Made by a program: the position numbers and the translations under genes. The notes under the pieces are model-generated. The model searched no databases, was not told the origin of the DNA, and worked only from the letters and a program-made list of their open reading frames with translations. Below are positions 4,036-34,254 of a DNA stretch of 39,706 nt, in pieces (position 1 is the first letter of the stretch; every line of letters starts with the position of its first letter). Source of the stretch: a virus; IMG/VR virus record IMGVR_UViG_3300049847_000168, positions 1 through 39,706 of that record; one strand, 5' to 3'.

Positions 4036-5790
4036 TTATGCCGGAACGGACCCCTGCGGGGGTGAGCCTTGCAGGGCGGCGATGGCGTCGTTGGGGTTTA
4101 CCTTCTTGCCGGCTGCTTTTGCCATACCCTGTGCGAGCTGATCTTGGACCATCGCTTGTTGTTGGGCGGCTTGTTCAGCGGCTTGCTGCTTGGCGCGGGC
4201 GTCTCGCATCGCCATGACCTTGTCGAGGTCATTGAAGGTTTTGCGGGGAACGCCTCTGGCGTCGCCGAGGGTTCGTTGGATGATATCCCAGTCATAGTTA
4301 TCCAGTACCTCAGGGACGATCTGGGCCATTTGCAGCACGTCGGCGATCTGGCCTTGGATGGCGGTGACATCTTCGAGCTGTTGCGAGCGGGCTTGGGGAG
4401 AGATGTACTTGACCGCGAAGTTTGCGCCTTTGAGCGAATCCGGGGGTTCGCCGAAGATGCCGGCGCGGAATCCCAGATAGAAGCAGCGGATGACCATGAC
4501 GGACAGCCACTCGCTTTGCATGCGGCCGTAGAGCGGGCCGTTCTGCTGGCGGATGAGAGCGACGCGGGCATGGATTTCGGTGGCGGTCATTTGCGGGCCG
4601 TCGCGCGGCTGCAACTGATCGGCCATCATGATTTTGCGGATGGTGGTCTGGAGCTGTTCGATCCGCTCTGTGGAGAGTGAGAAGTTCGCCCCCGAGGTCA
4701 GCGATTCGATGGACTGCTGATCGGCGACGGGGATGATGGCCCGGCCCTTTATTTTGATGTTGCGCGGGTTGACGACGCCGTCATCGATGACTTTCCACAG
4801 GCCGCCGACAGCGATCTCGGTGGCTGCCATGTCGAGGCGTTTCAGTTCGTTCAGTTGCCGCGCTGAGGGCAGGGCATCGAATACCGGGCCGACGCCGTAG
4901 TGCGAGTTGGCGAGGCGCGACAGGCGCGGCACCATGCACGGGAATTCGTCGAAGCCGGATTCGTAGATGATGAAGTTGCGGCCGGTCTCGAACAGCACCG
5001 ATCGGAACGGCTTGTTCTTAGATAGTCTGGCTTGCGTGCCGCCGACCACTTGCAGGCCGGGTCGCGGCTCGATGGCGTGACAGAGGTCGATGAGCGCGTT
5101 GGGGTCGGTATCGAGTTTCGATCTGACGTGTTCGCTGATCTTGCCGCCGCGCTGCTGGGCGATCTGCGCGACCTGTGCCGCGGTCATTCTGAACTTGCGA
5201 TAGACCGTATCGATGCGGCCGTCGGCGCGGGTCGATGAGATGTAGCACTGGCCGATGGGAAACGAGGTGAAGCAGAAGCCGCCGCCGTTATCTTGATCGA
5301 CATCGACGAAGAGGACGAACCATCCTGCGGTGAGGTCTTTGAGGCAGTCCGGTGTTTCCGAGTCGAAGTTCGATGAGTGAATTTCGAGGTGGAGGATATC
5401 GGCTGCGGCCTCCAGCCACTTACGGGCCTGATCGTCGGCGTTGAAGACGGACAGTTCGAACCAGCGCGCGCTGGACGGCACTGAGCCGAGCTGCGTCTGG
5501 GCGGCGAAGATGTTCGCGGCATCGGTGAGGGTGTCATCGACGATGAGTGATTTTCGGTTCATGGCCGAGACGGCCTGCCCGATCACGTTATCGGTCTGGA
5601 ATCCTTCGCCGCGGGTTGGATAGGTGTGATCGAAGCATTCGCGGTAGATGGTCTCGTGCGGAGCGCGGGCAGTAACGAGCTGCTGGAGGTTTCGATTCAG
5701 GATCATGCCGAGGGCATCGTCCTGGCTATCCATGGCGCGGCCTGGCGGCGGGTTACTCGGCGTGTCTGCGGAGAACGTGGCTTGAGCCAT
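4036..5790 (-). CDS. Portal (head-to-tail connector) protein
   Basis: This 584-residue protein forms the dodecameric vertex through which DNA enters and leaves the capsid. Length and sequence fit the podoviral head-tail connector family (T7 gp8-like): an N-terminal helical region with YRECFDHTYPTR (residues about 49-60), a central wing, a stem/crown region with PSARQLNELKRLD, and RDGPQMTATEIHARVALIRQ (about 398-417), which is very characteristic of this family. The C-terminus (about 535-584) is a Gln/Ala-rich helix that would line the crown or barrel. The start ATG overlaps the preceding gene's stop as TAATG. It is the first large gene of the leftward virion block. Confidence 0.92.
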   Translation of the reverse strand: MAQATFSADTPSNPPPGRAMDSQDDALGMILNRNLQQLVTARAPHETIYRECFDHTYPTRGEGFQTDNVIGQAVSAMNRKSLIVDDTLTDAANIFAAQTQLGSVPSSARWFELSVFNADDQARKWLEAAADILHLEIHSSNFDSETPDCLKDLTAGWFVLFVDVDQDNGGGFCFTSFPIGQCYISSTRADGRIDTVYRKFRMTAAQVAQIAQQRGGKISEHVRSKLDTDPNALIDLCHAIEPRPGLQVVGGTQARLSKNKPFRSVLFETGRNFIIYESGFDEFPCMVPRLSRLANSHYGVGPVFDALPSARQLNELKRLDMAATEIAVGGLWKVIDDGVVNPRNIKIKGRAIIPVADQQSIESLTSGANFSLSTERIEQLQTTIRKIMMADQLQPRDGPQMTATEIHARVALIRQQNGPLYGRMQSEWLSVMVIRCFYLGFRAGIFGEPPDSLKGANFAVKYISPQARSQQLEDVTAIQGQIADVLQMAQIVPEVLDNYDWDIIQRTLGDARGVPRKTFNDLDKVMAMRDARAKQQAAEQAAQQQAMVQDQLAQGMAKAAGKKVNPNDAIAALQGSPPQGSVPA

Positions 5791-7940: not shown

Positions 7941-8198
7941 CTAGTACCTCTCAGGCTTGGCAGCACGCGGCGCCTTGTGAGTACGGACAACTAGCGCAGC
8001 GCGGGAGCGCATGACCGCTTGCTCCCTCCTCCCATAGTGAATTCTGGCTGGCTTGTTGAGTGTAGAGGTTTTGGCGACAGATTTGGTGTTGGTGAGATTC
8101 GACATCCTATCTGGATGCCTTCGCACCATCTCGGCCAGCCATTCTCGCTGCCGTGCCTTCTTGATCGTTCGATCTACAGCAGGATCACGCTTGCCCAT
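7941..8198 (-). CDS. Small very basic protein, unknown
   Basis: This 85-residue protein starts at ATG 8198, with an AGGT site about 9 bases upstream (CAGGTAATCAAC). An in-frame start at 8279 would run through the early promoter region and is less likely. The product opens MGKRDPAVDRTIKKARQREW and stays rich in Lys and Arg throughout, so nucleic-acid binding is plausible. It is transcribed leftward, divergently from the early block that begins at 8317. Divergent placement next to the early promoter is typical of regulatory proteins, but no helix-turn-helix is evident. Confidence 0.45.
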   Translation of the reverse strand: MGKRDPAVDRTIKKARQREWLAEMVRRHPDRMSNLTNTKSVAKTSTLNKPARIHYGRREQAVMRSRAALVVRTHKAPRAAKPERY

Positions 8199-8252
8199 GT
8201 TGATTACCTGCTGAGTGCCGACGAACGGTAGTAAAAAGAGGATGAACGGTCG

Positions 8253-8294
8253 TTGACACGTGTTGTCACGTACTGACATTGAGTTATTCTGACA
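8253..8294 (+). promoter_or_regulatory. Early promoter region with TGACA repeats
   Basis: The 118-bp gap between the divergent genes at 8198 and 8317 has TTGTCA (8263-8268), then 16 bases, then TATTCT (8285-8290), a fair sigma-70-type promoter for the rightward early block. TGACA occurs three times (8254-8258, 8274-8278, 8290-8294), and the first copy forms an inverted repeat with TGTCA (TGACA-CGTGT-TGTCA, 8254-8268). These repeats may be regulator sites overlapping the promoter. The assignment is from consensus match and position only. Confidence 0.5.
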
Positions 8295-8316
8295 TCACAT
8301 CCACCGGAGAGCAAGC

Positions 8317-8517
8317 ATGACTAAGGCAACCACCAAGCACGTAGAGAAGACAATCAAGGCTTTCGTAGACGGCATCGTCAACGCCGACTACGTAGCCAGA
8401 GTCCTGACCGCTGAGCATCGCGCAGCGCTCAGGGAAGCAGACAAAGCGGCGCTGGTGCAGTTGATGAACACGCACTGCCGCTACCAAGTCGATTTCACCC
8501 GGATGGTGGCGCGCTAA
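8317..8517 (+). CDS. First early gene, small helical protein, unknown
   Basis: This 66-residue protein starts at ATG 8317 behind GGAGA 8 bases upstream. The sequence (KHVEKTIKAFVDGIVNADYV, then LTAEHRAALREADKAALVQLM) suggests an all-helical, mildly basic protein. As the first gene after the early promoter it is likely to be among the first expressed on infection, a position often held by host-takeover or anti-defence factors. No family is recognised, so that is positional inference only. Confidence 0.65.
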   Translation: MTKATTKHVEKTIKAFVDGIVNADYVARVLTAEHRAALREADKAALVQLMNTHCRYQVDFTRMVAR

Positions 8518-24336: not shown

Positions 24337-24668
24337 TGGGTGCTAACTACCTTCAGACCTTCCAGCCGCTTGGTGAGTAGGCGACCTTGTTCCTCGAACT
24401 TGTCGTACTTGAGTTGTTGCTTCTCGCGGTAGCCGACACTAGCCGGGCTGAGTATCCCTCGCTCGATGACCACCTGAATGCGATTGACGAGCGAGACCAT
24501 GGCGCTGGCAGATGCGCGGGCCGCGGCGCGGGCGTTGCGCGTCTCCTTGTCCATCTGGCCGATACGCTCCCCGGCGCCCTCCCACTGATCGGGATCGCAC
24601 TCCTCCAGCAGCGCATCGACGAGACGCTCTTCAAGACTACGCAGTTGATCGAGCTGTTTCGGGGTCAT
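24333..24668 (-). CDS. Putative small terminase subunit
   Basis: This 111-residue helical protein begins MTPKQLDQLRSLEERLVDAL and includes a basic run KETRNARAAARASASAMVSL and a C-terminal helix (LLTKRLEGLKVVST). Size, helical content and position directly before the large subunit (ATGA) support the small, DNA-recognising subunit. No classic helix-turn-helix is visible, so the assignment rests on context. Its start overlaps the ejected-protein gene upstream by four bases. Confidence 0.75.
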   Translation of the reverse strand: MTPKQLDQLRSLEERLVDALLEECDPDQWEGAGERIGQMDKETRNARAAARASASAMVSLVNRIQVVIERGILSPASVGYREKQQLKYDKFEEQGRLLTKRLEGLKVVSTQ

Positions 24669-27130
24669 TGGAATGCTTCCTCAAGACGTGGCGCCTCGGC
24701 GTCCGACAGCGGCGCGCCGGGCGGCAACCAATAGCTTTGCTTGTTCTGCTTCTCGGTCTGACTCTTGATCCGATTCAGGTAGCCGGGCTGCAAGTATTCC
24801 TGAATGTCATGTAACACGAGATGATCCATCAGTCCCTTCGACCACCACAAGTTTACGAGCGGGGCGTTGTTGCGAGCAAAGCGAAAGGCGGCCCCCTCTT
24901 TGGCTGGCAAGTTCTCCATGAACGTCTTGTTGCTGGAGCCAGCGTTAAGCATCGAACCTAGACTCGCCACCGTGTCGAATTGCGGACCCAGCAACGACAA
25001 GGCAGCCCGACCCTTGCCAGTGTTCGGGTCTGATCCAAGTAGCTGCGAGATCGAATCCGCAAGCGGGCCACCAGCACCGCCGCGGACGAAGGCATTCGCC
25101 CAGAACTTGGCATTGCCCATCGGCTTGGGGTTTCTCTGATTCGCCAGTTCGGCCAGCTGGATCGATACAGCACCAAGGATGGTAAGCGACGTGGCCAGCC
25201 CGGCGCCGTACTTCACCGCTGAAGCCTTGTCGCCCATGCGCCACATGTCTATCGCGCGCCCGAGATGGCGAGTGATCATCGAGAAGGGGAAGGCTTTGAA
25301 CAGGGCCATAGCACGCAATAGTTCGCCTTGAAACGAACCCGGCGTCGTGCCTCTGGTCAGCGCTGCCTCGGTGTAGAGATCAGGGGCGAGTGAGGCGAAC
25401 TTGCTCTCGTCAGCCGTGATGGCAAGGAAGCGGGTGACGGCGCGATCTACGTCACCTACAGGGAAGCCGGTCACCGCCCGCAATGAATCACGGGTAAGGA
25501 TCGCGGTGCTTCCGTACATGTCTGGCGTGGCCGCTTGCCATACCGCGAAGTCCTTCTCAGTCACACCGGCGAGTTGTAGGTGCTTTCGATCCAATTCATC
25601 CATGGCTTCCCACGCGCCACGAGACAGCTTGCCCATAGAAGCAGCGAGGTTCAGTGATGCGGCTTTGCGTAGCGCCTGCGTCCAGTCGACAACGAGACCC
25701 AGCTTCATGGTGGTATGCGCAACCTTGGAGGTCCAGCCGTAACCAAGGTTGTTCTCGACGAAGCGATTCATCCCGGCCATGGCGGTTTCGCCGATGAACC
25801 CGGCACGGTTCAGATATTCGGTGTTAGCTTTGCCAAGTACCTGAAAGGCCCTGATGCCGGATGTCAGTATCGGTATGCGATTGAACCCAGTCGTATGAAA
25901 GTAGGTGCCGATGTCCTGAATAGAGTTGAGCAGGGTTGAGCCAAGATGGGCGCCTACTTCGAGGTTGCGCCACCCGCGAAGGAAACGCGCCACGTTCTCA
26001 TCACCCTTGAGCGGTACGTTGGTCTTTCCCGTCAGCGAGTCGAACATGTGCTGCGTGGATACGCCGACGACTGGCGGGCCGACGCGGTCGAAGTCGCCGG
26101 CCTTGACGGCCCTCTGGTGCAGCGTCTCATACAGGCCGTGCGGGTCGGGTCCCATCTGTTCGAGCAGCGTGATATCACGGGCGAGCCGCGCGACGTGCGA
26201 TTGCATGGCGTAGAACAGCCCGCCGTGGCCGAACTCGTTCATCTGGTCAGCCCACGCGTCACCGTCCTTGAAGTGCAACTCACGATGCTTGGTGGCACTG
26301 CGCGTAGCCAGGGTGCCACGGAACTGGCGTTCACCCGGCTCAAACTTGTTCAGGCCGTCGGTGGACAGCGTTTCGAACGACTCGCGCAGCATCTCGCGCA
26401 TGCGGTCATCGGTCATCAGCGCACCATCCTCATCGACGTAGAGCGCGCGATTGAGACGGTTGAGCGTTGTTTCCACCCACTTGTCGACGCCTGCGCGCAC
26501 CATCTTCACGGCATCGTGCATCTGCGGGATGTAGCCGTAGCCGAGTTTGCGAACATCGCCACCTGCCCGGTTAATGCGTTGCCGCATGTCCTCCATGCCG
26601 CGTAGCCAGACATCGACAGCCGCCTTGGCCTCGACGTTGCCCGTTTTCTTGCCGAACACCTCGTTGGCGAAGTCACGCGCGAACTTGGCATCTTCGACGA
26701 AGCCGAACCACTTGCCATCGGATGAGTTCAGCGCCTTGAACATCTGGCCGAAGTACTCGTTGATGGTGCCGTGAACTGCCTTGCGAACATCTGCCAAGAA
26801 CTGGCCGACAGCGTTGAAGTCCTTGATGTGCGTCAGCGACTGAATCTCGTTGATGCGATCAGAGACCCGCGCGTCGGCACTGGCAGCCAGTAATGTCCGC
26901 CGCATCTTCTCTGACGACTCGTGCACCAGCTCAGCGGCAGACCTGTGGGCCGCTGCCTCTAACCGCTGCTGACGTGTCAACCCCTGCCACACCTGCCGGT
27001 CACTGGCCGCCAGCGTGCGCATGTTGCGAATGATGCGTTGCTGTAATTCAGTACCTTCGCCACGTCGCAGCGGCCGCCCGATAGCCTTCTCGACAGCGGC
27101 AATGCACTTGGTACGCATCGGCTTAGCCAT
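24665..27130 (-). CDS. Large internal virion (ejection) protein
   Basis: This 821-residue protein occupies the place of the T7 gp16-type large internal core protein. It begins basic (MRTKCIAAVEKAIGRPLRRG) and is highly helical through its length, with hydrophobic patches that could enter the membrane, such as YGAGLATSLTILGAVSIQLA (about 652-671). Residues about 470-560 have many aromatic residues. It probably helps form the channel that carries DNA across the envelope. No lysozyme or transglycosylase motif was seen, unlike T7 gp16. It overlaps the gene upstream by eight bases. Confidence 0.7.
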   Translation of the reverse strand: MAKPMRTKCIAAVEKAIGRPLRRGEGTELQQRIIRNMRTLAASDRQVWQGLTRQQRLEAAAHRSAAELVHESSEKMRRTLLAASADARVSDRINEIQSLTHIKDFNAVGQFLADVRKAVHGTINEYFGQMFKALNSSDGKWFGFVEDAKFARDFANEVFGKKTGNVEAKAAVDVWLRGMEDMRQRINRAGGDVRKLGYGYIPQMHDAVKMVRAGVDKWVETTLNRLNRALYVDEDGALMTDDRMREMLRESFETLSTDGLNKFEPGERQFRGTLATRSATKHRELHFKDGDAWADQMNEFGHGGLFYAMQSHVARLARDITLLEQMGPDPHGLYETLHQRAVKAGDFDRVGPPVVGVSTQHMFDSLTGKTNVPLKGDENVARFLRGWRNLEVGAHLGSTLLNSIQDIGTYFHTTGFNRIPILTSGIRAFQVLGKANTEYLNRAGFIGETAMAGMNRFVENNLGYGWTSKVAHTTMKLGLVVDWTQALRKAASLNLAASMGKLSRGAWEAMDELDRKHLQLAGVTEKDFAVWQAATPDMYGSTAILTRDSLRAVTGFPVGDVDRAVTRFLAITADESKFASLAPDLYTEAALTRGTTPGSFQGELLRAMALFKAFPFSMITRHLGRAIDMWRMGDKASAVKYGAGLATSLTILGAVSIQLAELANQRNPKPMGNAKFWANAFVRGGAGGPLADSISQLLGSDPNTGKGRAALSLLGPQFDTVASLGSMLNAGSSNKTFMENLPAKEGAAFRFARNNAPLVNLWWSKGLMDHLVLHDIQEYLQPGYLNRIKSQTEKQNKQSYWLPPGAPLSDAEAPRLEEAFQ

Positions 27131-29051
27131 CTAGCGTCCCCCCTTGGAGAATGCAGTCTGCCGCTGCGGCGAACATCTGTGAGTCGTTCACGGTATCCAA
27201 GTGATCCTGCATGAGATGTTCTACGGCTTGAGCGATGGGTACTTTCCCTTGGCCAGTGTCGATTTCCAGGTCTGGATGAGATTCGGCGAGAGCGCGTAGC
27301 TGTCCGATCTCTGGCGGTTCTGGTGGCGGCTTCACTTCGGCCTTTGACTGCTCGGCAGGCTTGGCAGTCTCGGCTTGAGCGGCCGGTTTGGTCTTGTCAC
27401 CGAATACGATTACCTGCGGTTCTCTGAAAACGTTCTCAAGCGTTTTCTTGCCAAACGTCTCCTTCCCATGCCTGTATTCATCGTATTGAGGAACATCTTT
27501 CCAATTCACGATCAGGCCATCGTGCCCTTTCTGCTTCACCAAAGCCTGTAATTGACTCGTCATTTCCTGCAACCTTTCCGGAGGGAGACCATGTGGATTG
27601 GGGAATTCCCAGCCGGCTTCCTTGGTTAAAGTCCTCCACTGATCATCACTACGGATCACCAATGGATCCGATAGCGGAGCGTGAACCGCTTCCTGTTTAG
27701 GGCCGTACCGGCTAGCCGCTTCCTTCGAGAGCGTGTAGTAACGAGCTTCGCCTGCTATGGGGATGCCATGGCTGCCAGACGAGTACACATTCGGATCGAG
27801 ACGATCTGCACGACCGAAGCCGCGGTAGACGGTTGTTGGAATGTCGGTCGGCCATTTAGACGAGATTGGAGCCGCCGGCGCTGCTTCTGGCGTGGCTTTC
27901 GACGTCTCCTGCGCCCGCTCCTTCGCCTTCTCTGACTGTCTGAACACATCCATGGCTGATGGATTGTCCTTGGCAGTACCAAGCTCTCGAAGAATCTGCG
28001 CGCTGAGATCGTCCTTGGCTACAGGGGAGCCATCCACAGGGACGACATCTCTCGTCTCCCCATGATTAAGAAGGGCATCCAACTCACTACGGGGCGGCAA
28101 GGTCGCATCTTCCTTGACCTGCGCCGCCAGTCCCTTCCTAACGCGATCAGCCGCTTCAGTGAGCCGCACCTCGCTAACCGGCGTGTCGGGATGCACCGAC
28201 ATCGGTTCTCCAGCCAGCGCGGCGTCGATAGCGCTCTCGTTCATGTCGCGCGCGCGCTGGGCTTGGAACGGGTCTTCGGGTAAGAGCTGCCCTTCAGTCC
28301 GGGCATTCTCAAGGTTGAGCGTCTGGGCAGCGGCCCGCACGTCAGGATTGAGCGTAACGCCTTTGTGCAATGCCGCGATCCCACCACCCAGGATGGCATT
28401 GATGCTCATCGAGACCGGGTCGAATACGGTGTACTGATCGGCCAGATGGTTGAGGTTGTCCTTCTCCAAGATGGTCTTGGTGATGGCGCGCTGACTGACA
28501 TCGAGAGCGACGTTGGCGCCTGCTCCCTTGAGCGCCCTGACTGCGAGGCTGCCGGTGAACGAGGCTGGCAGCTTGAGTCCTGCTGCCGATGCAGCACCGG
28601 CCACTAAGCCGGTTCCTAGGACTGCTGGCGTGCTACCACCGGCCATCGTGACATCGTGTTCTTGGCCTATCGTTTCGTGAGCAACAACACCCGCGATCCC
28701 GCCGCCCAGCGCAGCCTCAGTTCCAAGCGAGGACAACCCACCGATCACGCTCGTCGCGATGCCCACATCTTCAGGCTTCGGCTTTATTGACTCAGCCGAG
28801 TCATCGAGCTGTTTGGCGAAGTCGTAGTAGAACGCAGCGTCGTGCGGTTTCTCTTCGAAGCCACCGGCAATGATGTTGACGTTCCTAGCCATCTTCAGCG
28901 CTGCAACAGCCGGATAGCGCCAGATGTTGTCGGCGATCCCTTTGAACGGGTCATGCCACGGGCCGGGCGTTTCTGGCGGCGGCGAGTTGCGCACCGAGTC
29001 TTCGTAGGAGACCTGCTCGGCGTGAGGGTCTAGGTCGTTCCAACTTGACAT
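27123..29051 (-). CDS. Internal virion protein with ADP-ribosyltransferase-like domain
   Basis: This 642-residue protein lies between two core proteins and is probably packaged and ejected with the DNA. The N-terminal ~95-230 is Gly/Ala-rich and hydrophobic (SVIGGLSSLG, GGGIAGVVAHETIG), suited to membrane insertion. Residues about 405-552 match the ADP-ribosyltransferase-like layout of phage polyvalent proteins: TVYRG (R410), ARYYTLSKEAASRYG (436-450), SDPLVI (461-466), GHDGLIV (509-515) and PQVIVFGDKTK (545-555). R410 and S442 could be the first two catalytic positions; I cannot assign the third acidic one with confidence. The linker (380-400) is disordered. NAD-dependent host modification is possible but not shown. 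Confidence 0.72.
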   Translation of the reverse strand: MSSWNDLDPHAEQVSYEDSVRNSPPPETPGPWHDPFKGIADNIWRYPAVAALKMARNVNIIAGGFEEKPHDAAFYYDFAKQLDDSAESIKPKPEDVGIATSVIGGLSSLGTEAALGGGIAGVVAHETIGQEHDVTMAGGSTPAVLGTGLVAGAASAAGLKLPASFTGSLAVRALKGAGANVALDVSQRAITKTILEKDNLNHLADQYTVFDPVSMSINAILGGGIAALHKGVTLNPDVRAAAQTLNLENARTEGQLLPEDPFQAQRARDMNESAIDAALAGEPMSVHPDTPVSEVRLTEAADRVRKGLAAQVKEDATLPPRSELDALLNHGETRDVVPVDGSPVAKDDLSAQILRELGTAKDNPSAMDVFRQSEKAKERAQETSKATPEAAPAAPISSKWPTDIPTTVYRGFGRADRLDPNVYSSGSHGIPIAGEARYYTLSKEAASRYGPKQEAVHAPLSDPLVIRSDDQWRTLTKEAGWEFPNPHGLPPERLQEMTSQLQALVKQKGHDGLIVNWKDVPQYDEYRHGKETFGKKTLENVFREPQVIVFGDKTKPAAQAETAKPAEQSKAEVKPPPEPPEIGQLRALAESHPDLEIDTGQGKVPIAQAVEHLMQDHLDTVNDSQMFAAAADCILQGGTLDG

Positions 29052-31123
29052 TACTGGCCCATCGCCGACGGTAACTCTGGCGCCACGAAGCCAGTCGGAT
29101 ACTGAGCCTTGGTTCCACGTGGAACATGCTTGCCGATCTGATTGAAGTCGAGCCAGAAGCGGCCGCCGCCAGAAACCTCCATCACCCCGCCACCGGCATG
29201 GATGTTGTAGCGCCCGTCATCCCCAGACAGGCGCGCATCGTGAATCGACTGAACGACCTGTTCAGGACTGATGGCGTGCACACCTTTGGCAGTTCTGAGC
29301 ACCAGTTGCCCACCACCAGCCATGGCCTTGATGTCATCGGGCGTGATGGCTGATAGGTGATCCTTGAACTCACCATCGCTCATCCCGTAAGGCTTCACCG
29401 TCTTGCCGTTGTGATCGATGATGCCACCCGTGACGATGTCGATGGCTTGAGTTAGCGCCGCGTTCTCGCTGACGCCTTCCTGTTGTAGCCCTGCCCACAC
29501 GCCGAGAGTAGCGTTGGTTACCGCGTCCATGCTCGCCTTCGTGGTGTAGGCCCCTTTGAGCTGATCGAGGATTTTCTTGGCCTTGTCGCCGCCGGCCACC
29601 AGCGAATTATCGGTGCCGCTCTTTTCCAGCTTGCGCCGCATGGCGTCGACACCAGCGAAGTAGAGTTTTCCGCCACGCGTCCCGGCATGCGCCATGACCA
29701 TCACGCCCATGGCAACGGAGTGGTCGCCCTTGTTCCGAGCAATCAGTTTCCCCGTCTCGGATATCTGCTGCGGCGACGCGGCTACCAGCGGTGCGAGATA
29801 CTCGGCGCGATCAGCCGGCTCAAGGGCCGAAGCGCGATCCGCCAGCACCTTGGCTTGATCGCCGGTCATGAGCGGCGCCACGTCACCCTTCCACGCAGAA
29901 GCGGACTGTGACTGGGCGATCATGCCGGGGAGTGCCTGCTTGATCGTGCTGCCAGAGGTGAAGTCGATTTGCGCTGGTTCAAACAGGCCGTTCAGCGCCG
30001 CACCCTTCACCGGGTCTTCAATCGACAGCTTCAGATTGCTATCGACCAGTTTCTCGACCTTGTTCACCTGAGCCAGAGTCTGCGGCGTTGGGTTGGCGTT
30101 GTACGCGGCCCGCGTGGCTTGCAGGTAACCGAGCTGCGCAGGGATCGGGCGGCTGGTGACAGCGCCGTTCTCGCGGGCGTCGTTGATAGCTGCCTTGAAC
30201 GGCTCCTCGTAGAGGCTTCCCTTCAGCGTGTCCTGAATGTGATTCACCCAGTCCGCCGACCGGGCGCCGAGCTGTGGCACCTGCGTTATCGCAAGGCTGT
30301 AAGTGGCGGCCTGATGGGCTTCGAGCCGCATCGCCGCATTGATCCGCTTCGATTCCTCTACCTCGGCGTGATTCTTGATCTGTGCCGCGTAGTTATCGAG
30401 GTAGTTGAGTTGCTGCTGGCGCTGCGTCGGGTCAAGGTCCGGCAGGAACTTAGGGTCAGCCAGTCGCTTCGATGCTGCGGTGTTGGCTGCCAGATCGAAT
30501 CGGCCAGACTCCGTTACCGCCAGCGCCTGATCGCGCGCAATGGTCTCCTTGGTGTGCTGGAGCAGCGCGCCTCGCTGAATCTCATCCATGGCCGAGTTCG
30601 GGCCAAGCGTATCCAGCGCCGACTTGAGCTGACCGAGGAGTCTAGGGTTACGCGTCGCCTGTTCAGCCTGAGCGATTAGGTTGGCCGAGATGTCATTCCG
30701 ATCCTGCTCGTAGATGGCGCGCTGAAGGTTGTTGGCGAGACGACCTGTATCGTCCTGCGCCTGAGCAGCAACAATGGCTCGATGCTCCTCAGAAACCGCA
30801 TCTACTGCGCCGTCGATGATCGACTTGGACGTATCCCTGAATTGCTGAACAGCATCGGCCTTGGAGATAGTCCCGCTTCTAATCCCCTCCTTGGTGGCAT
30901 CGTGAGCTGCGGTCAGCGCATCACTGATTTGACCGGTGGCGGTAATGGCGGCGGCGCGATCGGCAGAGTCACGGACCTTGGCGGCCTGGCGCTGATGAAC
31001 CTCCCCGATCTTGTTAGCAAGTTCAGTGAACGCCGGGCCAATGGTGGCCTGCTCAGGCACCTGAACGCTATTAGGCGTCCCGGCTACCCGACTACCGAAG
31101 TTGCCAGCAGGAATGACAGCCAT
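29051..31123 (-). CDS. Middle internal virion protein
   Basis: This 690-residue, mostly helical protein (EVHQRQAAKVRDSADRAAAI, then long Ala/Gln/Asp-rich repeats) sits in the T7 gp15 position between the small core protein and the next. It ends in a beta segment (GGGVMEVSGGGRFWLDFNQI, about 648-667), followed by a basic tail. It is likely a component of the internal core that is ejected into the cell. The stop overlaps the next start by one base. No enzymatic domain recognised. Confidence 0.72.
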   Translation of the reverse strand: MAVIPAGNFGSRVAGTPNSVQVPEQATIGPAFTELANKIGEVHQRQAAKVRDSADRAAAITATGQISDALTAAHDATKEGIRSGTISKADAVQQFRDTSKSIIDGAVDAVSEEHRAIVAAQAQDDTGRLANNLQRAIYEQDRNDISANLIAQAEQATRNPRLLGQLKSALDTLGPNSAMDEIQRGALLQHTKETIARDQALAVTESGRFDLAANTAASKRLADPKFLPDLDPTQRQQQLNYLDNYAAQIKNHAEVEESKRINAAMRLEAHQAATYSLAITQVPQLGARSADWVNHIQDTLKGSLYEEPFKAAINDARENGAVTSRPIPAQLGYLQATRAAYNANPTPQTLAQVNKVEKLVDSNLKLSIEDPVKGAALNGLFEPAQIDFTSGSTIKQALPGMIAQSQSASAWKGDVAPLMTGDQAKVLADRASALEPADRAEYLAPLVAASPQQISETGKLIARNKGDHSVAMGVMVMAHAGTRGGKLYFAGVDAMRRKLEKSGTDNSLVAGGDKAKKILDQLKGAYTTKASMDAVTNATLGVWAGLQQEGVSENAALTQAIDIVTGGIIDHNGKTVKPYGMSDGEFKDHLSAITPDDIKAMAGGGQLVLRTAKGVHAISPEQVVQSIHDARLSGDDGRYNIHAGGGVMEVSGGGRFWLDFNQIGKHVPRGTKAQYPTGFVAPELPSAMGQ

Positions 31124-31743
31124 CAGGCATATCCCGAGTACGTATTAGGATTGGCGGCACCGCCTGAACTACTACGGGTCGGCGAGGGATTATTGGTTAC
31201 GCTCACAGGGTTTCTCTTTGTGAACCATCCGTTCTGACTAGCCGATTCGTATGCCTGACCAGCCTGACTCATCCACGTTGCGAGACCGCCTACCCGCGCC
31301 TGTGCCTTGAGCGACTCCTCATTCAACTTGGTCTGCGATGTTGTGGCGATGTTTTCCAGTGATCCTCGAAGAATCACTTGTGCCGCATCGCTATTGATGT
31401 CCCGATGCTCCTGAGAAATCATGTCAACGGGCGTCCCTGAGTTCACATCGACGCCAGCATCTGCGTAAGCAGATTGCGTGCTGGATACCAGTTCGTCACC
31501 CTGCCGCTTGATGATGTCGGCTGTTTTCAGCGTATCAATCATCCGCTGAGCGTTTTGGTACTTTGCGTATCGGCGGGTTAGCTTGGCGGTTTTCTGAACC
31601 TGGTGGAATTGGATCGCCGACCCAATCATCTTCAGGACACCCTGAATCGCCAGGGATATCCAATCTCCGCTACCTCCTTGTCCTTGCCCGCCGGCGCTGC
31701 TGCTACTGTCCCCGCCGGAAGCGGCAGTGGTCGATGTCGCCAT
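31123..31743 (-). CDS. Small internal virion protein, T7 gp14-like
   Basis: This 206-residue protein opens with a Ser/Gly-rich low-complexity stretch, then a helical part (LAIQGVLKMIGSAIQFHQVQ and KYQNAQRMIDTLKTADIIKR), a segment ADAGVDVNSGTPVDMISQEH with the 'SAYADAGVDVNSGTPVDM' motif common in such core proteins, and a flexible end. This is the smallest of the three internal proteins and the first after the tail nozzle, as in T7. It probably inserts into the outer membrane first. Overlap of one base with the next gene. Confidence 0.78.
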   Translation of the reverse strand: MATSTTAASGGDSSSSAGGQGQGGSGDWISLAIQGVLKMIGSAIQFHQVQKTAKLTRRYAKYQNAQRMIDTLKTADIIKRQGDELVSSTQSAYADAGVDVNSGTPVDMISQEHRDINSDAAQVILRGSLENIATTSQTKLNEESLKAQARVGGLATWMSQAGQAYESASQNGWFTKRNPVSVTNNPSPTRSSSGGAANPNTYSGYA

Positions 31744-31755
31744 CTGATCTACTCG

Positions 31756-34254
31756 CTAGTTAGCCTGCACTTCGCGCACCACTGCCAGCACGTGCCATGG
31801 CATGGATTCGTATTGTGCGATCGTGATTTCGTTCTTGCCAATATTCCAGCCGTTCACGCTGGCCAACTTGATGCCAGTGAACATCGGCACCCTGATATCC
31901 AGCTTGCCCGGCCCGAAGTCGGTGAACGGGATTGTCTGCAATCGCGCTTCCCTGTCCAGCACTGTACAGCCAAGGCTCTTAAGCAGGCTGATGTAGATGC
32001 GTCCGGTCTTCATTGCCGTGCCTTGCGCTGTGCCTGCCTGCGTCTGGAACTCAGGCGTCAGTAGCGTTACCTGCGGTGGGACATTGAACGGGATGCCGAT
32101 CATCGTGCGCTTACTGGTGCGCGATAGCGGCGGGGTGAGCACTGCGGTGGCAATGGTGAAGTTGCCCATGCTCACGCCATCGGCGATAACTGCCACGGTC
32201 TTGGCTTCGAGCGCTCCCAGACCGGTGAACGATGACTGACCTGATCCGTTGTCAACGGTGACGCCGCAGTCCACGACAGTGCCGTACACGTCAGGGGCTA
32301 CTGTCGGCGGTGAAGCGTTCGGGTTAACCGCCACCGGATAGTCAGGCGCGAACGTGTGGTCGAACCTTTCCACGTAGCGCACGGACACACCGTTCACGTA
32401 CCGGCGCACCAGCAGCCACACCTGATCGTAGGTGCCCTGCGGGATGACAGCCATGCACTCGACAAAGCCGTCGGTGTAGTGGTGCGAGAAGGCCAGCACT
32501 GTCTTGGCGTCGGGGTCTATGGTGCACGAGATGAATGAGCCGTCGTTCAGCCATGCCCAAATGAGTTGATCCGGCTCGTTCTGGTAGATGAGCCCGGCCA
32601 CACCCGAGGCAGTGATGTGCTCTGCGATTGCCGTCAGGTCGTCGCCGCGGTACCGGTCGCCGTAGTTGGCATCGCTCTGGTAGTCCATGGAGCGGATGCG
32701 AAGGCCAGACCGCTGCACGAACACTGCTTGTGTGCCGACGAAGATCGGTCGTACCGTTCTGGTGCCATGACGCGACTCGCGCCGAATGGACGGCGGCGAT
32801 GTCGGCGTGATGGTTCTGCCGGGAGGCGCCTGCAACGAGTACTCGCCGCCGAAGGTGTAGACCAGTAGCCCCCGGAACGGCTGAAGAAACGTGATCTGGT
32901 TGGTTTCCTCGCTCGATATCGTGTACTCCCATGAGTCGGAGTCGAGTACGCCCTTCGTGAAGTCGAGCGGATTGCCGAGTCTCGACGCCCAGATGGTTTG
33001 CGGGAATCGAGTGGTGCCAGCCATCAGAAGCCGTTGTTCGTAGAACGTCCCCGTCGTCGGGAAGCCTAGCGACGTGCTGAACGCAGGGGCTTCGAGGGTC
33101 CACGACAGGGGCGGCGCCGCCACCAGTACGGATGTCGTCGTCACGCCGGTGGGCACGGTGTAGATGATCCCATTCACCACGCTGGCGCTGAGCAGACTGG
33201 TGATCTTGACCATTCCGCCGTTGAAGCGCAGGAAGCTGCCGACATCGGTCGATCGCCATGCGTCCTGAGTGATGCCCCACGATCCAGCCACCAGCGTCAA
33301 TGAGGTGAAGTCACTGGTGGTAACGGCAGTGCACTGCGTTGCGTTGACGAAGGTGAGCCCTGCCTGTCCCGCGTCCGCGTAGATAATCTTGCCGGTATCC
33401 CCAGCTACGAACACCGCCGCACTGGCGTTAATGGTGATGGCGCCGGTCTTGGCGGTAAGGGTCAGCGTCGCGCCACGTGTCTGTGATGCCGCTACCGTCA
33501 CCGCCGTACCTGCGGGCGTCTGCGCGCTGGCCTTGATGAACGCCTGTGGTGACACGTCCATGTACCAGTTGCCGGAGGCAATCGAGGTCGACGAGAACGT
33601 TGTGATGACCTGGGCGGTAACAACCGTCGTCGACGTGTATCCGGTGATCGTGGCGATGCCCTTCGCGTCGGTGCGCACGATGTTTCGGCCCACGTCGCAG
33701 GGCAGAAAGGCAGCCGCCGCAGCGGTTACCGTGATGGCGCCAGAAGTGGCCGACAGCGTTAGGCTTGTTGCCGGAGCAAACCCCGTCTCATCGAACGGCG
33801 CCGTCACGTAGGGGATCGGAACCAGTTCCCAAGCGGTCGCGCCGAAGAACTTCAGGCGCTGGGGCGTTACCTGCGGGTGAAACACGTAGAGCGTGTCACC
33901 GGACTGGGTATAGTCGAGCGTCTCGACCTGATTCTCGGTGTATGGACTGACCAGTTCCACACCGGTGTAGACGCCATCGATGGCGAAGATGCGGACATAC
34001 AGATCGCCCCATTCAAGGATGTACGCCTGCGTCGCGGACAGCACGAACGGCATCAGTCGTGCTTTCTTCGTTCCCGAGTTCTTGGCTGCCTGAACGAACA
34101 GCGTGCCAGGTCGACGCTTCAGACTGCCCTGAATCGTGGGATAGGCATTGATGATCGACTTGGCGCCCTGCCGGTACTGCTGGGCGTCAGTGCGGCTCAG
34201 TAGCCGAGGCGATATCTCACCTGAGACAAAGCTGGTCTGGTTGTCTCTGTACAC
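31756..34254 (-). CDS. Tail nozzle (tail tubular B-like) protein with domain repeats
   Basis: This 832-residue protein is the distal tail tube. Start MYRDNQTSFVSGEISPRLLS and AKSIINAYPTIQGSLKRRPG (31-50) are the hallmark of nozzle proteins in BPP-1- and phiKMV-like phages. Inside are two similar beta units, residues about 164-231 and 262-328, both with the pattern LTL-x-A-x-SGAIT-x4-A ... VT ... G-x-W; a third, weaker one follows. They look inserted between the nozzle's core strands. The C-terminal half (FPQTIWASRLGNPLDF to RDNQ-type end) is the conserved part. It attaches to the adaptor encoded just upstream (one base apart). Confidence 0.88.
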   Translation of the reverse strand: MYRDNQTSFVSGEISPRLLSRTDAQQYRQGAKSIINAYPTIQGSLKRRPGTLFVQAAKNSGTKKARLMPFVLSATQAYILEWGDLYVRIFAIDGVYTGVELVSPYTENQVETLDYTQSGDTLYVFHPQVTPQRLKFFGATAWELVPIPYVTAPFDETGFAPATSLTLSATSGAITVTAAAAAFLPCDVGRNIVRTDAKGIATITGYTSTTVVTAQVITTFSSTSIASGNWYMDVSPQAFIKASAQTPAGTAVTVAASQTRGATLTLTAKTGAITINASAAVFVAGDTGKIIYADAGQAGLTFVNATQCTAVTTSDFTSLTLVAGSWGITQDAWRSTDVGSFLRFNGGMVKITSLLSASVVNGIIYTVPTGVTTTSVLVAAPPLSWTLEAPAFSTSLGFPTTGTFYEQRLLMAGTTRFPQTIWASRLGNPLDFTKGVLDSDSWEYTISSEETNQITFLQPFRGLLVYTFGGEYSLQAPPGRTITPTSPPSIRRESRHGTRTVRPIFVGTQAVFVQRSGLRIRSMDYQSDANYGDRYRGDDLTAIAEHITASGVAGLIYQNEPDQLIWAWLNDGSFISCTIDPDAKTVLAFSHHYTDGFVECMAVIPQGTYDQVWLLVRRYVNGVSVRYVERFDHTFAPDYPVAVNPNASPPTVAPDVYGTVVDCGVTVDNGSGQSSFTGLGALEAKTVAVIADGVSMGNFTIATAVLTPPLSRTSKRTMIGIPFNVPPQVTLLTPEFQTQAGTAQGTAMKTGRIYISLLKSLGCTVLDREARLQTIPFTDFGPGKLDIRVPMFTGIKLASVNGWNIGKNEITIAQYESMPWHVLAVVREVQAN

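Follow-up and report, generated by a model that had tools for sequence, protein, structure and literature searches.

The IMG/VR virus record IMGVR_UViG_3300049847_000168 (39,706 nucleotides, analysed at full length and hereafter called the window) encodes on its minus strand a protein of 642 amino acids (aa) with an ATG start. Sequence comparison and structure prediction show that this protein is built on the frame of the epsilon15 gp16 family, that the domain carried within it has a predicted ADP-ribosyltransferase (ART)-type fold, and that ARTs and other predicted enzymes have repeatedly used the same slot in related phages. It is considered probable that the protein is the gp16-type ejection (core) protein of a short-tailed phage with an ART as cargo, and that it is ejected and acts early on a target belonging to the host or to its defences. 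With somewhat less confidence, gp16 of epsilon15/BPP-1-type podophages is proposed to be a delivery chassis whose effector bay can be exchanged while head and tail remain standard. Its cargo would comprise ARTs, Zeta-type kinases, and ParB-like or cell-wall enzymes, represented in the window by a glutamate-less ART subfamily (R-Y-[Q/L]) with its own conserved recognition block.

The ART-PolyVal-like domain

As judged from sequence profiles and structure models, residues 405–552 form a divergent ART-PolyVal-like domain. An ART domain of the phage polyvalent type had been proposed here in the initial annotation from the motif series TVYRG, ARYYTLSKEAASRYG, SDPLVI, GHDGLIV and PQVIVFGDKTK. All these motifs are present in that order and their coordinates are exact. 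The assignment itself was upheld in profile comparisons controlled by shuffling; Pfam matches of two members of the family and structure models of two members agree with it.

Iterated searches of IMG/VR delivered four relatives with 36–47% identity, each located within a very large open reading frame (ORF; 3307, 2184, 1894 and 3986 aa). Domains of large polyvalent proteins are also present in L014 and L016, and GNAT domains in L013 and L016. Two of the four relatives matched the ART-PolyVal family PF18760 independently and colinearly (L015, E 0.0048, 18.1 bits; L016, E 0.0039, 18.4 bits), with scores below the Pfam gathering cut-off of 31.2 bits; the window showed no match to PF18760. The 3986-aa ORF of L016 contains in addition a separate canonical ART-PolyVal domain (E 3e-29), so that a canonical domain and a member of the divergent subfamily (L016:12210-12731 and 7986-8456) are found within one polyvalent protein.

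The five-member family was compared by hhalign with 11 reference domains of ART-PolyVal type, ten of them YHG-motif domains taken from phages and from L016 and one a protein of phage LIMEstone1. The family reached 97.9% (score 79.5) and the window sequence alone 95.0% (score 50.4). Since hhalign probabilities are pairwise and not database-wide, shuffles are the relevant yardstick: 200 column shuffles gave at most a score of 21.1 and 4.1%, and the reversed alignment a score of 14.3. Upon omission of L015, L016 and the LIMEstone1 protein the comparison still yielded 96.1%. Homology to ART-PolyVal by profile comparison clearly exceeds the controls. No ART match for the window domain was obtained among PDB sequences with phmmer or hmmsearch, and a tblastn search of phage and plasmid sequences with the domain gave no match. 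Scans of genome contigs gave no relative of the subfamily, which has therefore been met only in IMG/VR.

AlphaFold2 was run on the five-sequence alignment and produced models of the window domain (predicted local distance difference test, pLDDT, 73.7; predicted template modelling score, pTM, 0.72) and of L015 (pLDDT 78.3, pTM 0.74). Predicted strands coincide with the YRG motif, RYY, the stretch preceding the NP motif and that motif itself, DGLIV and QVIV, which is the strand order expected for an ART. In a Foldseek search of the PDB, AcrIF11 (6kyf) was the top match of both models (E 0.031 for the window; E 8.1e-4 with probability 1.00 for L015), followed mostly by PARP catalytic domains, with PARP4, PARP2 and tankyrase near the top. 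The comparison of predicted structures with ART folds, recommended in the initial annotation, thus came out in its favour. Among viral models, a large polyvalent protein came first (E 1.1e-6), and PolyVal ADP-ribosyltransferase was the label of many of the other matches. A chance resemblance of motifs with no ART fold behind it is very improbable: the window protein has no direct library match, but the existing shuffle and reversal controls speak strongly against chance, as do the independent PF18760 matches of L015 and L016 and the ART matches of two models.

ARTs of phage and plasmid polyvalent proteins, including virion-linked ones, were described in 2017 by Iyer et al. (PMC5512222), who also listed zeta-type kinases and DdrB-like ParB domains. 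With ART-PolyVal (PF18760) the window subfamily shares its presence in virion-linked phage proteins and the order and register of the motifs [VL]Y[HR]G, G-x-[YF]-x(3)...A...Y, NP, G[HYF]D[GA] and F-x3-Q. It differs in having R in place of H in strand 1 (4/5 members), in lacking a conserved acidic strand-5 residue, in scoring under the Pfam cut-off, and in its own RSDxxWRALTxEAGWEFPNPFG block; moreover, the carrier in the window is a 642-aa ejection protein and not a giant polyvalent protein. AcrIF11 is likewise a small phage-borne ART, which relies on H, Y and D/E (H20, Y46 and D146/E147 in the Pae2 homologue; PMC12421852). In contrast to the window domain, it stands alone without virion fusion and has the acidic residues, and its sequence identity is only 12–17%.

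A compact ART-PolyVal-like domain of 152 aa is encoded by ORF173 of Dickeya phage LIMEstone1 (CCD57734.1, L021:2941-3399). By tblastn it reached only E 0.3, yet by alignment it is a convincing ART. According to its record, which is the source for its presence in the virion, it is a confirmed structural protein with unassigned function. In both Foldseek lists, chain B of PDB 9k3a, from the pre-ejectosome of cyanophage A4, ranked second or third (probability 0.51); an ART-like domain may be present in this ejectosome protein.

Probable active-site residues

Landmark residues of the domain are R410, Y438, W472, W481, H510-D511, F542 and Q546. Over the five aligned members, R410 of strand 1 reads R, R, R, H, R, and Arg in strand 1 also occurs in the gp16-slot ARTs of L058 and L084. 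Y438 of strand 2 is invariant (5/5), as are G434, the WRxLTxEAGWxFPNP block, GHD and F542/Q546, and the position of Y449 reads Y, Y, Y, F, F. R410 and Y438 are likely active-site residues. R or H in strand 1 together with an invariant strand-2 Tyr fits, at the level of sequence, the H-Y-[EDQ] clade better than R-S-E. An R-S-E reading with S442 was rejected, as this position is not conserved (S, T, T, D, T) and there is no conserved E. Conservation of R410, S442 and an acidic residue had been put forward as a check in the initial annotation; R410 is kept in four of the five members, S442 and an acidic residue are not conserved, and Y438 proved invariant.

The third catalytic residue had been regarded as uncertain in the initial annotation; two registers remain, neither of which places an acidic residue there. 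The strand register of the AlphaFold2 model, with QVIV as strand 5, places the invariant Gln546 there, and matching of F-x3-Q to the canonical F-x-P-x-Q places Leu/Ile. Q is permitted as third residue in the clade named H-Y-[EDQ] (PMC9503650). Activity through substrate-assisted catalysis is known from human mono-ARTs with H-Y-I or H-Y-L (PMC9189837). Gln or Leu/Ile is compatible with known mono-ADP-ribosylating enzymes and equally with lost activity. In the latter case the ART fold would bind NAD+ or ADP-ribose without transferase activity, acting as a decoy for NAD-based defence or as its sensor, or would be a mere structural spacer. This alternative is given about one chance in four. The acidic strand-5 residue, E or D in most canonical relatives, is not conserved in the five members, and the strand-1 residue varies between R and H; however, the invariant residues and blocks listed above suggest a selected function, and the permitted Q and the active H-Y-I and H-Y-L enzymes point in the same direction.

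The block RSDxxWRxLTxEAGWxFPNP is almost invariant in the subfamily and missing from canonical ART-PolyVal members. It probably has a role in target or substrate recognition.

The gp16-type carrier and its exchangeable slot

Residues 75–254 of the 642-aa protein match phrog_1145 (2e-10) and residues 111–230 match phrog_14422 (1e-10), two families that are also matched by epsilon15 gp16, phiV10 gp19 and BcepC6B gp16. Head and tail hidden Markov models (HMMs) were built from nine relatives with the window left out. The head HMM finds residues 77–265 (E 6e-22; best shuffle 0.095) and the tail HMM residues 585–638 (domain E 5e-5; best shuffled sequence E 0.3), hence the ART lies between two segments that are common to the gp16 family. 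The gp17-type protein encoded next to the carrier is present in 112 phage records. In the relatives read, the gene before gp17 is of epsilon15 gp16 type, with the exception of phiVC8, where it belongs to a different family. The carrier likewise sits between gp15- and gp17-type genes, and is identified from homology and synteny as the epsilon15 gp16 equivalent. The location in an ejected-type core protein, as initially annotated, thereby gains support from both lines of evidence, but the neighbours are epsilon15 gp15 and gp17 equivalents instead of the T7 gp15- and gp16-like proteins that had been named. As single-sequence queries of IMG/VR, the whole 642-aa and 821-aa proteins returned nothing, but alignment-based searching did find relatives.

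Guided by gp17, the best 80 IMG/VR loci by similarity to the window's gp17 were surveyed, and 52 slot proteins, including that of the window, were scanned with Pfam (counts at E<0.001). SLT was found in 14/52, ART-PolyVal in 6/52, Zeta_toxin in 5/52 and ddrB-ParB in 2/52. ART-PolyVal scored above the cut-off in the gp16-type proteins of L036, L060, L065 and L093, and more weakly in L058, L041 and L084; in L036, L060 and L093 the ART is flanked by a recognisable head and tail. As both canonical and divergent ARTs occur in the slot, ARTs have probably entered it repeatedly. YeP5 (430 aa) and L087, L094 and L096 (about 423 aa) possess head and tail with little in between, indicating that the middle part is dispensable in evolution. 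Related phages exchange different predicted enzymes, some of them toxin-like, at this one position of the gp16-type protein. The epsilon15, phiV10 and BcepC6B proteins share head, tail and gene order with the carrier but are devoid of an ART; BcepC6B has an SLT transglycosylase, and the middle part of phiV10 and epsilon15 is without assignment. No ART was detected in the slot by a Pfam scan of ten cultured phages (Tyrion, an eleventh of phiV10-type length, lay outside the scan). Zeta_toxin kinase domains occupy the same slot in related phages, L030, L084 and L089 among them, pointing to injection of a kinase of cell-wall precursors.

Knowledge of injected ARTs comes mainly from giant polyvalent proteins and from T4-like myoviruses. 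In a survey of 2022, ARTs were reported in only about 3% of podoviruses (PMC9503650). A search of the open full-text literature (subscription papers lie outside it) yielded no title or abstract that presents the gp16 slot of epsilon15 as a bay for exchangeable effectors, and such a slot in epsilon15-type phages looks undescribed so far. With a compact 640-aa ejection protein and a defined cargo slot, what short-tailed phages inject besides DNA becomes testable in well-studied systems such as epsilon15 and phiV10. Candidates for early-acting effectors could moreover be catalogued from nature, since the head-to-tail interval can be read from any related genome.

In the proposed mechanism, the conserved head and tail would carry the 642-aa protein in the virion, with the interchangeable cargo, here the divergent ART, joined to both through Pro/Ala-rich linkers. 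At infection, the protein would leave the capsid along with the DNA and the proteins of gp15/gp17 type. Its ART domain would then bind host NAD+ via R410 and Y438 and mono-ADP-ribosylate a host or defence target ahead of phage gene expression. Packaging, ejection, cytoplasmic exposure, catalysis and target are inferred here from knowledge of the family; the anatomy of the protein supports an ejected effector. The proposed logic is that of T4 Alt, an ART that travels in the virion and enters the cell with the DNA. The comparison with Alt made in the initial annotation thus stands for the mode of delivery but fails for the enzyme, Alt belonging to the Alt/VIP2 R-S-E clade (PMC5512222), whose residues are not conserved in the window domain.

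Alternatively, the ART could act late in the producing cell, for example in assembly or host takeover, the virion-gene neighbourhood reflecting late transcription only. A late-operon position is by itself no proof of packaging, but the in-frame fusion of the ART to a head and tail conserved across the epsilon15 gp16 family, and the placement between gp15- and gp17-type genes, make this explanation rather improbable.

Several points weigh against an ejected, early-acting ART. The window domain alone gave no convincing ART match in Pfam, NCBIfam or PHROGs with hmmscan. Template modelling (TM) scores to PDB ARTs are low (0.37–0.39 for 6kyf, query-normalised), which speaks for a fold assignment and not for a close relation. 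Alignment of strand 5 over the five members revealed no conserved D/E at the expected third catalytic position. SLT enzymes act in the periplasm; as this cargo works there, the slot alone is no proof of cytoplasmic delivery, and the periplasm may be the working compartment here too. Finally, the assignment of epsilon15 gp15 and gp17/16 to a packaging/injection device is made in PMC12391199, citing Guichard et al. 2013; for gp16 the placement in the tail/injection device belongs to that paper and to earlier genetics, not to the present analysis.

Genomic surroundings and further occurrences

The minus strand of the window encodes a T7-type terminase (phrog_38), a head–tail adaptor, tail proteins, an internal virion protein and the phrog_684 virion protein; primase, helicase and exonuclease VIII-like genes are located on the plus strand. 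The features around the ART are compiled in Table 1. In a search of 13 proteins, the 690-aa protein was weakly similar to the gp15-type proteins of BUCT711 and phiV10 (E 4e-5 and 2e-4). The GC content of the ART segment is 0.529, compared with 0.606 for the N-terminal portion, and falls in the lowest 2.3% among 444-nt windows of the late block, consistent with a swapped module acquired elsewhere.

Table 1. Features of the late block around the ART-like domain.
Feature	Coordinates	Strand	Evidence
gp16-type ejection protein with ART-like domain, 642 aa	27123..29051	-	ORF; phrog_1145 and phrog_14422 matches
Conserved head of the epsilon15 gp16 family, residues 77-265	28257..28823	-	HMM from 9 relatives
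ART-PolyVal-like domain, residues 405-552	27396..27839	-	hhalign; AlphaFold2 and Foldseek; GC
Conserved C-terminal tail of the gp16 family, residues 585-638	27138..27299	-	tail HMM
epsilon15 gp17-type virion structural protein, 821 aa, directly downstream, 8-base overlap	24665..27130	-	phrog_684, E 6e-175
690-aa protein, epsilon15 gp15 position	29051..31123	-	mainly synteny; weak similarity
Internal virion protein, epsilon15 gp14 position	31123..31743	-	phrog_418, E 4e-13
Tail (nozzle-type) protein, upstream in same late block	31756..34254	-	phrog_376 tail protein, E 1e-162

ARTs of the YHGT type were observed in giant late proteins of two genomes of about 39 kb, namely Limnohabitans phage DC33 (L019:7001-7414; record label Inoviridae) and the podovirus isolate ctEw122 (L020:5001-5408). 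In L065 the gp16-type gene is apparently split (L065:2-1879 and 4154-4750), one ORF encoding the head plus the ART and a second the family tail, separated by unrelated ORFs.
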